A stretch of 46,313 nt of DNA, taken from Oscillospiraceae bacterium. Its GTDB lineage: Bacteria; Bacillota; Clostridia; Oscillospirales; Oscillospiraceae. Where the stretch lies: the NCBI GenBank assembly GCA_021771635.1, contig JAETOQ010000013.1, forward strand, positions 1-46,313, in the 5' to 3' direction. The position numbers were made by a program, and so were the translations under genes. This document shows, piece by piece, positions 26,333 to 29,647 of the stretch (positions within the stretch are counted from its first letter, which is position 1; each line of letters begins with the position of its first letter). The notes beneath the pieces were generated by a model. It did no database searches. It was not told the DNA's origin and saw only the letters and a program-made list of their open reading frames with translations.

Positions 26333-28335
26333 TCCTCGCACTGGCAGGCAATCAAAACTGCGGCAAGACCACCCTGTTCAACCAGCTCACCGGCTCCAAC
26401 CAGCATGTGGGCAACTTCCCCGGCGTCACCGTGGATCAGAAATCCGGTGAGGTCCGGGGGCAGAAAGACTGCACCGTCGTGGATCTGCCGGGCATCTACT
26501 CCATCCGGCCCTATACGCCGGAGGAGATCGTCACCCGGGACTTCATCCTGAATCAGAGGCCCGACGGCATTATCAACATCGTGGACGCCACCAACATTGA
26601 GCGGAACCTCTACCTCACCTTGCAATTGATGGAGATGCGCATCCCTATGGTGCTGGCGCTGAACATGATGGACGAGGTATCCGCCAACGGCGGCACCATC
26701 GATATCCAGGGCATGTCCAAGGCTCTGGGCATTCCTGTGGTCCCCATCTCCGCCGTGAAAAATGAGGGTGTGGACGAGCTGATCCGCATCGCGGTCAGCA
26801 CCGCCAAAAACCGGACCTATCCCCAGGTATACGATTTCTGCACCCCTGGTCCCGTCCACCGCTGCATCCACGCGGTGGTCCACCAGATTGAAGACCACGC
26901 CGAGGCCGCCGGCCTCCCTGTCCGCTTTGCCGCCACCAAGCTGATCGAAGACGACCCGGACATCCGGGCGCGGCTGGAGCTGGACCAGAACGAGCTGGAG
27001 CTGATCGAACACAGCGTCCAGGAGATGGAGGCCGAGCACGGCATGGACCGCAACGCGGCCCTGGCGGATATGCGGTATGACTTTATTGAGGGCGTCTGCC
27101 GGGAGACGGTGGTCAAATGCCGGGAGTCCAGGGAGCGCCAGCGCAGTGAGGCCATCGACCGGGTGGTCACCAACAGGTATCTGGCCCTGCCCATCTTCTT
27201 CGGCATCATGCTGGCGATCTTCTACCTGACCTTCAATGTCATCGGCGCGTTTCTCTCCGATCTGCTGGCGGCCGGCATCGACACGCTGGCGGTTGCCGTG
27301 GACGCGGGCCTGACGGCCTACGGCTTGAACCCGGTGGTCCACAGCCTGGTGATCGACGGCATTTTCGCCGGAGTGGGCAGTGTATTGAGCTTTTTGCCCA
27401 TTATCGTGGTCCTTTTCTTCTTTTTATCGATTTTGGAGGATACCGGATACATGGCCCGTGTGGCCTTCGTCATGGACCAGCTGCTGCGGAAGATCGGCCT
27501 GTCCGGCCGCAGCATCGTGCCGATGCTGATCGGCTTCGGCTGCTCGGTGCCCGCCATCATGTCCACCCGGACGCTGGCCTCCGAGCGGGACCGGCGGATG
27601 ACCATCCTGCTGACGCCCTTTATGAGCTGTTCCGCCAAGATCCCCATCTACGCGGTATTCACCGCCGCGTTCTTCCCCGGCTGCGCGGCGCTGGTGATGA
27701 TCGGCCTGTACTTAGGCGGCATCCTGGTGGGCATTCTGGCGGCCAAGATCCTGGGCGCCACCGCATTTCAGGGGAATCCGGTCCCCTTTGTCATGGAGCT
27801 GCCCAACTACCGCTTCCCCTCCGCCAAAAGCGTGGGCCAGCTGTGCTGGGACAAGGCCAAGGACTTTTTGACCCGGGCTTTTACCATCATCTTTGTGGCC
27901 ACCATTCTGGTCTGGTTCCTCCAGACCTTTGACACCCGGCTGAACCTGGTGACGGACAGCGCCGACAGCCTGCTGGCCGCCGTGGGTGCCTGGATCGCCC
28001 CCCTGTTTGCCCCCCTGGGCTTTGGCGACTGGCGGGTATCCACCGCCCTGATCACCGGCTTCATTGCCAAGGAGTCCGTGATCTCCACCCTGGGCATCCT
28101 CACCGGCGCGGGCGCCGATGTGACGGTGGAAGCCCTCAGTTCCCTGTTCTCCACCGTGACTGCCATCAGCTTCCTGGTGTTCACCCTGCTGTACACGCCC
28201 TGCGTGGCGGCGATCTCCGCGGTGAAGCGGGAGCTTGGCTCCGGCTGGAAGGCGGCGGGCGTCGCCATCAGCCAGTGCTGTGTGGCCTGGGTGGTGTCCT
28301 TCCTGGTCTATCACATCGCTCTTCTGATCGCATAG
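26329..28335 (+). CDS. feoB: Ferrous iron transport protein B
   Basis: A 668-aa inner-membrane Fe(II) transporter with an N-terminal G domain. G1 is GNQNCGKT (7-14), the G3 motif is DLPG, G4 is the FeoB-type NMMD, and the switch region includes GNFPGVTVD. A helical guanine-dissociation-inhibitor-like region follows (about 165-270), then the transmembrane core with two nucleoside-transporter-like gates; GFGCSVPAIM and SCSAKIPIY contain the conserved Cys thought to line the iron path. The start is in the feoA stop; the frame upstream is a shadow of feoA. Confidence 0.95.
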   Translation: MILALAGNQNCGKTTLFNQLTGSNQHVGNFPGVTVDQKSGEVRGQKDCTVVDLPGIYSIRPYTPEEIVTRDFILNQRPDGIINIVDATNIERNLYLTLQLMEMRIPMVLALNMMDEVSANGGTIDIQGMSKALGIPVVPISAVKNEGVDELIRIAVSTAKNRTYPQVYDFCTPGPVHRCIHAVVHQIEDHAEAAGLPVRFAATKLIEDDPDIRARLELDQNELELIEHSVQEMEAEHGMDRNAALADMRYDFIEGVCRETVVKCRESRERQRSEAIDRVVTNRYLALPIFFGIMLAIFYLTFNVIGAFLSDLLAAGIDTLAVAVDAGLTAYGLNPVVHSLVIDGIFAGVGSVLSFLPIIVVLFFFLSILEDTGYMARVAFVMDQLLRKIGLSGRSIVPMLIGFGCSVPAIMSTRTLASERDRRMTILLTPFMSCSAKIPIYAVFTAAFFPGCAALVMIGLYLGGILVGILAAKILGATAFQGNPVPFVMELPNYRFPSAKSVGQLCWDKAKDFLTRAFTIIFVATILVWFLQTFDTRLNLVTDSADSLLAAVGAWIAPLFAPLGFGDWRVSTALITGFIAKESVISTLGILTGAGADVTVEALSSLFSTVTAISFLVFTLLYTPCVAAISAVKRELGSGWKAAGVAISQCCVAWVVSFLVYHIALLIA

Positions 28336-28345
28336 GAGGTCCTTT

Positions 28346-28486
28346 ATGCTGGAATTCCTGATTTTGGCCCTGCTGGGGGGCTGGCTGTTCCTGGCCCTCC
28401 GCTCCTGCCTCCGCCGGAAGGGCGGCTGCGGTTCCTCCTGCGACGGCTGCTGTTCAGCCTGCCGCGCCAACTGCCAAAAGCGATAA
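28346..28486 (+). CDS. FeoB-associated Cys-rich membrane protein
   Basis: A 46-aa protein directly after feoB with a strong ribosome site (AGGAGG, 7 nt before ATG 28346). One transmembrane helix (about 2-19) is followed by a basic stop and six Cys (GGCGSSCDGCCSACRANC, plus C21). This is the FeoB-associated Cys-rich membrane protein family; it may deliver or sense iron at the FeoB exit. Confidence 0.9.
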   Translation: MLEFLILALLGGWLFLALRSCLRRKGGCGSSCDGCCSACRANCQKR

Positions 28487-28490
28487 GCCA

Positions 28491-28571
28491 TGATCCCCGG
28501 ACCGAACGGTCCGGGGATCACGACTCTTCATAAGATCAGGGGCAGCAGCTGAAAAAGCTGCTGCCCCTGAT
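28491..28571 (+). terminator. Two consecutive hairpins after the feo operon
   Basis: A perfect 13-bp stem with loop GAAC (28491-28520), then a perfect 16-bp stem with loop GAAAA (28535-28571). Neither is followed by a strong T-run, so they may act as 3'-end stabilisers as well as terminators. Confidence 0.6.
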
Positions 28572-28582
28572 TTGCATGTGTC

Positions 28583-28733
28583 ATACTAAAACTTGTTAAA
28601 AAGCTTTTTATAGCGCCGGAGGCGCGTCAAGTTCTTATGAGACGCATTTTGCACCGTTTACGGTGCGAAATGGAAACGCACTTGTGCGTTTCCGTTCTTG
28701 ATAAAACGAAATGGTTTTATCAAGAATTAGTAT
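28583..28733. repeat. Compact multi-hairpin element
   Basis: About 150 nt in which nearly every base is in an inverted repeat. ATACTAA (28583-28589) closes with TTAGTAT (28727-28733). Inside: AACTTG (28590-28595) with CAAGTT (28628-28633); TAAAAAGCTTTTTA self-palindrome (28597-28610); GCGCC/GGCGC (28613-28625); GCGTC/GACGC (28624-28645); a 12-bp stem 28645-28656 with 28661-28672; a 10-bp stem 28672-28681 with 28684-28693; a 13-bp stem 28695-28707 with 28714-28726. No coding frame fits. It may be a repetitive palindromic element or a structured RNA. Confidence 0.8.
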
Positions 28734-28777
28734 CAGGCAGCTGTCAACGGGGACGCGGCCCATCTGCCTGTTCCGGC

Positions 28778-28969
28778 TTATTTCTGCTCCTGCTTGAGCC
28801 GCTTTTTTGCCTCCTCCACGGTCTCGCCGTCTTTGGTCAGATAGCGCTCAACAAAGGCATCCTCCATTTTGGTATAGCCGTCTACAACGGTATCCTCAAT
28901 TTTTTCAAAGGTGCCGACAACTTTTTCCGCGATTTTTTCATTCGCTTTTACGATTTTTGATTTTGCCAT
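28778..28969 (-). CDS. Small charged helical protein in the TetR-controlled cluster
   Basis: A 63-aa Lys/Glu-rich protein, mostly helical by composition (KIVKANEKIAEKVVGTFEKI, ETVEEAKKRLKQ), no Cys and no membrane segment. It is the last gene of a minus-strand cluster with two membrane proteins, divergent from a TetR regulator. Function unknown; similar short proteins occur with TetR-regulated membrane genes in Firmicutes, as far as I recall. Confidence 0.7.
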   Translation of the reverse strand: MAKSKIVKANEKIAEKVVGTFEKIEDTVVDGYTKMEDAFVERYLTKDGETVEEAKKRLKQEQK

Positions 28970-28975
28970 TCTGAT

Positions 28976-29647
28976 CTATCCTTTCTTGATCCCTCTGATC
29001 GTCATGAAAATTCCCAGCATCAGTACAAATAAGCAAATACCAGCCCCTGTCAACGCGTTCATCAGCCGTACTTTTGCACTGTCTATCGCCCCGAAAGAGA
29101 CCAGCATGGACCGCTGCAAGGTCAGGACCGACGCGGCCACCTCGGCATAGCTGATCGTGCGAATGACCGCCAGCAGCGGAGAGGGGTTCTTCCTCTGCCG
29201 CACAGCTCTGATGACCGCCATTGTGATTTTGTAAAAGGTATAGGCCGCGATGGTGATCATGGTGATCTCGCCATATTTTGCGGTGATGTTCTGCGACAGG
29301 CTGATGTAATTGACCGCCGCCAAAACAAGGCTCAACAGGACGAGCAGCACGCCGGACAGCTTCATCACAAAATACTCTGTATCATCAGACGCCGCGGCGC
29401 CGCCCCTGCGTTCACACAAAACGGCGGAGAGGCGCATGGTGCCTAAAACAGTGTAGTAGGCACACATCGTGATAAACCACACAGACATGCCGATCACGCC
29501 CAGCACACCATGGTACAGCGCATAGAGGAGATTCAGCAAAAAGCCGAGAGCCGCAGTCAAAACCATCCGGAATCGCTGTTCCCCGACGATCCGCCTCCCC
29601 AATTCCGTTTTTGCAAGCCGGTCGGCGGCGGCCCGCCTGACATTCAC
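28976..29647 (-). CDS. Multi-pass membrane protein, function unknown
   Basis: A 223-aa product with about five hydrophobic segments (near 25-45, 46-65, 90-110, 120-145 and 195-220). The start is GTG 29647, overlapping the stop of the upstream gene (GTGA) and placed 9 nt after AAAGGG; an ATG-led longer frame would lie inside the upstream gene. I recognise no family. It is probably co-regulated with its neighbours by the divergent TetR protein. Confidence 0.7.
   Translation of the reverse strand: MNVRRAAADRLAKTELGRRIVGEQRFRMVLTAALGFLLNLLYALYHGVLGVIGMSVWFITMCAYYTVLGTMRLSAVLCERRGGAAASDDTEYFVMKLSGVLLVLLSLVLAAVNYISLSQNITAKYGEITMITIAAYTFYKITMAVIRAVRQRKNPSPLLAVIRTISYAEVAASVLTLQRSMLVSFGAIDSAKVRLMNALTGAGICLFVLMLGIFMTIRGIKKG

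Follow-up and report, generated by a model that had tools for sequence, protein, structure and literature searches.

The stretch of Oscillospiraceae DNA analysed here (contig JAETOQ010000013.1, 46,313 nucleotides, referred to as the window) contains at 28583-28733 a compact series of stems, and the question raised by this locus was what kind of element it is. A sequence-only reading had offered two options, a palindromic interspersed element or a structured RNA or DNA site, and had proposed a search for many copies with covarying stems; both the copies and the covariation were found. The first option was right and could be made more specific. In all likelihood the stretch is a miniature transposon (MITE) that is not autonomous, and an IS630-type transposase seems to move it. 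As a MITE it is of an already-known kind; the unusual features are the branched covarying fold, the TNA duplication and the insertion at stop codons.

Extent, copies and target duplication

The exact unit was 28584-28732, with a length of 149 nt and TCA on either flank. Its parts were as follows.

28581..28583, no strand: left copy of the target duplication, TCA (sequence; equal 3-bp flanks in 56 of 66 distinct class A copies)
28584..28732, + strand: mobile element (MITE), 149 nt, TACTAAAAC...ATTAGTA (copies and flanks)
28584..28588, + strand: left terminal repeat TACTA, pairing with 28728-28732 (fold and alignment)
28589..28595, + strand: 5' arm of helix P1, AAACTTG (77 cores with 30 different stems)
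28598..28609, + strand: P2, shortened to AAAAAGCTTTTT in the window copy (alignment A1)
28613..28625, + strand: P3 hairpin, GCGCC-GGA-GGCGC (both-sided changes in 2 of 5 pairs)
28628..28634, + strand: 3' arm of helix P1, CAAGTTC (stem and covariation tests)
28634..28644, + strand: conserved motif CTTATGAGACG, sharing its first base with P1 (no variation in the 17 rows of A1)
28646..28671, + strand: P4 hairpin (both-sided changes in 5 of 11 pairs)
28672..28693, + strand: P5 hairpin (loop inverted in copy L006)
28695..28726, + strand: P6 hairpin at the right end (both-sided changes in 4 of 14 pairs)
28728..28732, + strand: right terminal repeat TAGTA (fold and end pattern)
28733..28735, no strand: right copy of the target duplication, TCA (sequence)

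The window copy was intergenic, between the converging genes feoB (+ strand) and a small gene on the - strand; it did not lie on a stop codon and probably does little at its site. The last base of its P1 3' arm (28634) was unpaired against A28589. Its P2 hairpin was shorter than that of most aligned copies, apparently through the loss of one 10-nt repeat. Behind the feo genes and directly before the element, two strong G+C-rich hairpins were present at 28485-28570, the first of which scanned as a terminator on the - strand.

The element matched 51 pieces of its own genome; some of these belonged to a single copy or were matches to the opposite palindrome arm. A degenerate end pattern gave 77 matches in this genome against 2 for the reversed control, and 5, 17, 19, 19 and 27 matches in five relatives, with 0 or 1 for the control in each. 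A hand count of the own genome that included degenerate copies yielded about 45 copies of class A and 16 of class B. Of 60 genomes searched, 9 carried the window element (own included); these 9 were among the 37 of the same genus, and none of the 23 from other families had it. A pattern scan of the named collection produced 49 stretches, some from the same genomes as the relatives already counted, and their titles named Oscillibacter, Dysosmobacter, Oscillospiraceae, Clostridia or Clostridiales, Butyricicoccus and Pseudoflavonifractor; no match to the element was present in the collections of phages and plasmids.

The terminal inverted repeats of the family were TACTAR...YTAGTA. In one set of copies the elements ranged from 116 to 217 nt, and class B elements (L107-L112 and most of L202-L216) were mostly about 165-168 nt long, with like ends, TNA flanks and a fold of two branched domains linked by AGTATTGACAAC. 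One class B copy (L213:1072-1485) measured 414 nt with its flanks, and its inner stretch resembled another inserted repeat. Another repeat (...CCGGGGAATGCCGG... or a close variant) adjoined or interrupted elements at the right flank of L021, in L037 and in L219.

For the target duplication, 66 distinct class A copies, all selected for T-N-A on the left, were compared at their right flank. Identical 3-bp TNA flanks were present in 56 of them, with TCA in 35, TTA in 16, TGA in 3 and TAA in 2 copies. The flanks were unequal in the other 10, but in at least two of these (L042 and L045) the right end had been mis-set, and another flank determination gave equal flanks. With a looser end finder, equal flanks were obtained in 55 of 87 cases. 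In element orientation TYA prevailed over TRA in 51 of the 56 copies, and this excess was kept in copies away from stop codons (29 of 32 with equal flanks). The bases beside the target were also uneven, with T and C before TRA and purines behind it.

Empty sites were compared on contig C130 of the own genome, which carried four elements within 6 kb and had collinear matches in other members of the genus; of the four sites, site 2 was without a placeable counterpart in the relatives. At the first site the own genome read TGA-element-TGA, while a single TGA stood in the same context in three of five comparable element-free relatives (L285, L286 and L289), and TAA and CGA were present in L284 and L287, respectively. 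At two further sites L284 had a single TTA and a single TAG, and the own genome had TCA and TAA. As the empty sites hold a single triplet, the duplication comprises 3 bp, TNA. A duplication of TA only was rejected, since the empty site read one TGA and not TNATATNA.

Fold and covariation of the stems

The minimum-energy fold of the + strand reached -63.2 kcal/mol compared with -32.5 (sd 3.5) for shuffled sequences (z -8.9), and that of the - strand -56.2 kcal/mol (z -8.2); in neither case was any of 200 shuffles as good. The outer closure of ATACTAA with TTAGTAT described by the sequence-only reading was present at 28583-28733. The chain of hairpins was also found, with loops of 3-6 nt, but the statement that almost every base is in a stem was too strong, as 106 of 151 bases were paired in the + strand fold. 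In place of six hairpins, the fold shared by the copies consisted of five hairpins plus P1 and the closing helix, with the difference on the 5' side. Contrary to the same reading, the element contained a T-run (TTTTT at 28605-28609, part of P2), and a consensus scan of 28300-29000 found one promoter-like match inside it (9 of 12 positions, 0.4 expected). The single terminator-like site found by consensus scan in 28300-29000 lay outside the element. Open frames did cross the stretch, for example 28637-28960 on the + strand, and the absence of a coding frame held insofar as none of them was convincing.

The consensus fold was obtained from alignment A1, which comprised 17 copies selected for a common architecture. 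It began and ended with the TACTA/TAGTA closing helix, within which P1 enclosed P2 and P3 and was followed by the 11-nt motif CTTATGAGACG and by P4-P6. Variants of the motif existed among copies beyond this alignment. In the 77 cores P1 had a mean of 6.71 of 7 Watson-Crick pairs, compared with a mean of 4.18 and a largest value of 4.86 in 5000 shuffles; when the calculation was limited to the 30 distinct P1 stems, the values were 6.43 and 3.91. Pairing was present in 96.5% of the cells of A1, and 21 of 62 pairs showed both-sided changes. The covariation score of A1 was reached by none of 500 shuffles, and when the partners were slid as a control, the pairs with double changes dropped to 2-4. 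The number of further pair types in A1 (41) was not above that of the shuffles (mean 42.3). As the sequences are related, the significance obtained from shuffles is overstated.

The architecture varied among the copies. P3 was missing from L051 and L120, and an insert of about 55 nt (CCCCGCAAGGGG...) was present in at least 13 of 66 copies according to a pattern-based search, which some inserts may escape; it lay behind P2 in seven and inside the P2 loop in six of them. This insert has hairpins of its own and two positions in class A (for example in L006, L017, L019, L026, L030 and L040), as if it were a module moved separately. When four end stretches of insertion sequences (IS) of 150 nt each were folded, three were without a terminal hairpin and the left end of L249 formed an imperfect one of nine pairs. 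As three of the four lack it, the elaborate fold is largely, although not wholly, a feature of the MITEs.

Insertion at stop codons and alternative readings

Many copies were located at the ends of genes. In 26 of the 63 copies on whose right end a frame of at least 100 codons converged, the stop codon of this frame was exactly the duplicated triplet, and at the left end the same was true of 5 of 63. Compared with TRA sites within 600 nt, stop codons were in excess (25 of 53 versus 87 of 1076). For a stricter comparison, the 44 of 66 copies whose TYA flanks were equal and which had 800 nt of sequence on either side were assigned with gene calls based on codon usage: 21 lay exactly on a stop codon, 18 were intergenic and 5 were in coding sequence, while the 1494 neighbouring TRA control sites comprised 30 stops, 294 intergenic and 1170 coding sites. 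The odds ratio of stop versus intergenic was 11 (p 2e-10), a figure that is derived from crude gene calls and related copies and that mixes targeting with selection after insertion. A cruder longest-frame caller assigned 10 copies to stops, 16 to intergenic and 18 to coding positions, and the excess was also seen (p 2e-4). In the own genome 8 of 21 copies were on stop codons. Class B pattern ends were on stops in 8 of 21 cases; one IS end and a few elements of other types are part of this set. At three of five IS ends in G029 an open frame terminated (262-285 codons), but a location of IS ends at stops is not claimed, as a coding-aware caller placed none of four examined IS ends on a stop.

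In the mechanism that we propose, an IS630-type transposase would bind both ends of the MITE, excise the element and insert it at TNA, with TC-TRA-RA as the preferred context and the right end of the element adjoining TRA. Where this TRA is a stop codon, the duplication would regenerate the stop and leave the gene intact, and part of the accumulation at stops may be due to this. We are less sure of the role of the stems, which may be a property at the DNA level that is renewed by strand switching within the palindromes; they might be kept if a compact folded strand makes it easier for the ends to meet or renders the insertion harmless. The further idea that the IS630-like system actively seeks stop codons (TRA, fixed polarity, stop restored) and that the branched covarying DNA fold of the MITE serves transposition is tentative, and we regard it as rather doubtful. 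If the stop-seeking part were true, insertion would occur without cost to the host.

The fold can be read in other ways. It could belong to a structured regulatory or catalytic RNA that was spread by transposition and acts in the transcript as an attenuator, an RNase target or a stabilising 3' end. The strong covariation, including that of P1 around P2 and P3, the invariant motif and the numerous copies directly behind stop codons are consistent with this, and genes co-transcribed with known MITEs can be affected by them (PMC3049150, PMC2229807). The better fold of the + strand also leans to RNA, as do the exceptions to pairing when counted by cells, with 28 G-U versus 19 A-C. When counted by pair columns, however, G-U and A-C were nearly equal (17 versus 15, p 0.86), and at copies behind stops transcription would mostly read the opposite strand, given the right-end and left-end counts of 26 and 5 in 63. 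Rfam had no match in the window at the gathering threshold and, for eight loci searched with E up to 1, none within a class A element. The RNA option of the sequence-only reading thus received no positive support, and we consider it unlikely. (Outside the elements, L014:2473-2652 on the - strand matched the malK-I RNA, RF03069, at 135.8 bits, where the gathering score is 60.3.) Alternatively, the stems may be functionless, with template switching copying one arm onto the other, sometimes flipping a loop and keeping the palindromes perfect. Loops of the same stem that differed between copies were exact reverse complements in 6 of 96 comparisons, with 0.7 expected; four of the six were loops of 2 nt, and loops of at least 3 nt gave 2 of 45 against 0.11 expected. 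Strand switching or hairpin inversion leaves such inversions behind, and with the lack of a clear RNA-strand bias they suggest, without proving it, that the fold acts at the DNA level. Template switching does not readily account for the covariation of P1, whose arms are separated by about 25 to 100 nt that contain other stems, for the stem order and unpaired motif kept across the aligned copies, or for the terminal hairpin missing in three of the four IS ends. A lack of function of the stems is therefore a real possibility, although we lean against it.

The accumulation at stops could likewise result from purifying selection only, if the element inserted at any TRA and copies within or before genes were lost. 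The control TRA sites were mostly coding (1170 of 1494), and converging neighbours outnumbered diverging ones by 19 copies to 3, as this would predict. Yet intergenic TRA sites were about ten times as frequent as stops and held 18 copies compared with 21 on stops; only 2 copies lay up to 60 nt behind a stop, versus 21 on one, while the control sites numbered 173 and 147, respectively. After the controls had been weighted by a target preference trained on non-stop copies, 7.4% were expected on stops. Selection as the sole cause is a real possibility but, in our estimation, not the more probable one. A terminator or a REP/BIME-like repeat, without transposition and target duplication, would agree with the palindromic nature of the element and its frequent position at the 3' ends of genes. 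It was already disfavoured by the 3-bp duplications and the empty site, and the element is without a terminator-like site, so this explanation is very improbable.

A putative IS630-type partner and related systems

A complete IS of 1116 bp was found at locus L249 in G080, a genome of the same genus that lies outside the 60 searched with the MITE. It had TACTAGTTACT at both ends and TTA on both flanks, and its ends shared only the first bases with those of the MITE. Its frame was split; the first part matched HTH_23, and the second matched DDE_3 (1e-18) and the IS630 model NF033545 (1.4e-38, above cut-off). In the congener G029 five contigs (C34, C50, C55, C73 and C75; L222-L226) ended about 120-170 nt inside an element starting with TACTAAAATCTGATAAAA. 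At its left end this element opened a reading frame, which was translated from one contig and was identical to the N-terminus of the L249 IS in 14 of 34 positions. G025, likewise of this genus, contained a copy with one recognisable (left) end and a DDE_3 frame. As contigs end inside the repeated IS630-type element, such assemblies probably contain too few of the autonomous copies, and the family may explain some of their broken contigs. No transposase of the four families searched (PF01609, PF13586, PF13359 and PF13358/DDE_3) was found in the own genome, whose assembly of 170 contigs may lack one; DDE_3 matches occurred in 13 of 86 genomes of the genus, the own genome not being among them. 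The PF13358 search gave 30 loci, and an inverted-repeat test on all 30 showed no such ends; L249 and L250 are the two of these loci that were read directly, and there the ends were found.

PIF/Harbinger and IS1031-type elements produce 3-bp TNA duplications, and IS1031-like transposases were considered because the TNA duplication suggested them. Despite this likeness, IS5-type partners were rejected: in the 86 genomes of the genus, own included, the end-pattern test was applied to the PF01609 and PF13586 loci, with PF13359 loci left out, and none of the best 30 of either kind had TACTA-type ends and equal TNA flanks. If the family belongs to IS630, it would be a variant group, since the duplication is a 3-bp TNA and not TA.

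Two questions can be approached in this family as a natural experiment, namely whether the palindromes of a MITE are kept paired by selection on the fold or by strand switching, and whether a simple DDE transposase can be guided to stop codons, which are safe to target where genes are crowded. Both are testable in Oscillibacter and its kin, with dozens of copies here, more in relatives and an empty site. Literature searches among open-access full texts, judged by titles and abstract openings, revealed neither an account of the present family nor one of an IS630 element that targets stop codons.

Among known repeats, Correia/NEMIS, ERIC and BOX resemble the element in their size below about 200 bp, stable folds, terminal repeats, target duplications and copy number (PMC3049150, PMC2229807); they occur in other hosts, and no homology was found in a comparison made through Rfam only. 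ISY100, of the IS630/Tc1-mariner group, is like the IS found here in its DDE_3 transposase, NF033545 match and short inverted ends. For IS630 and ISY100 a duplication of TA is reported (PMC2170065), whereas the IS found here was flanked by TTA and the MITEs by TNA. The nearest described case found was that of RUP and IS630-Spn1 in Streptococcus pneumoniae. RUP is a folded MITE of 107 bp whose ends resemble those of IS630-Spn1; it targets sites containing TA and reaches its highest density 50-150 bp from genes (PMC3049150, PMC2229807). It shares with the present family the short folded MITE and the IS630-type ends. Unlike RUP as described there, the present family duplicates TNA, folds into a larger number of stems of which one part is branched, and has many of its copies on stop codons.
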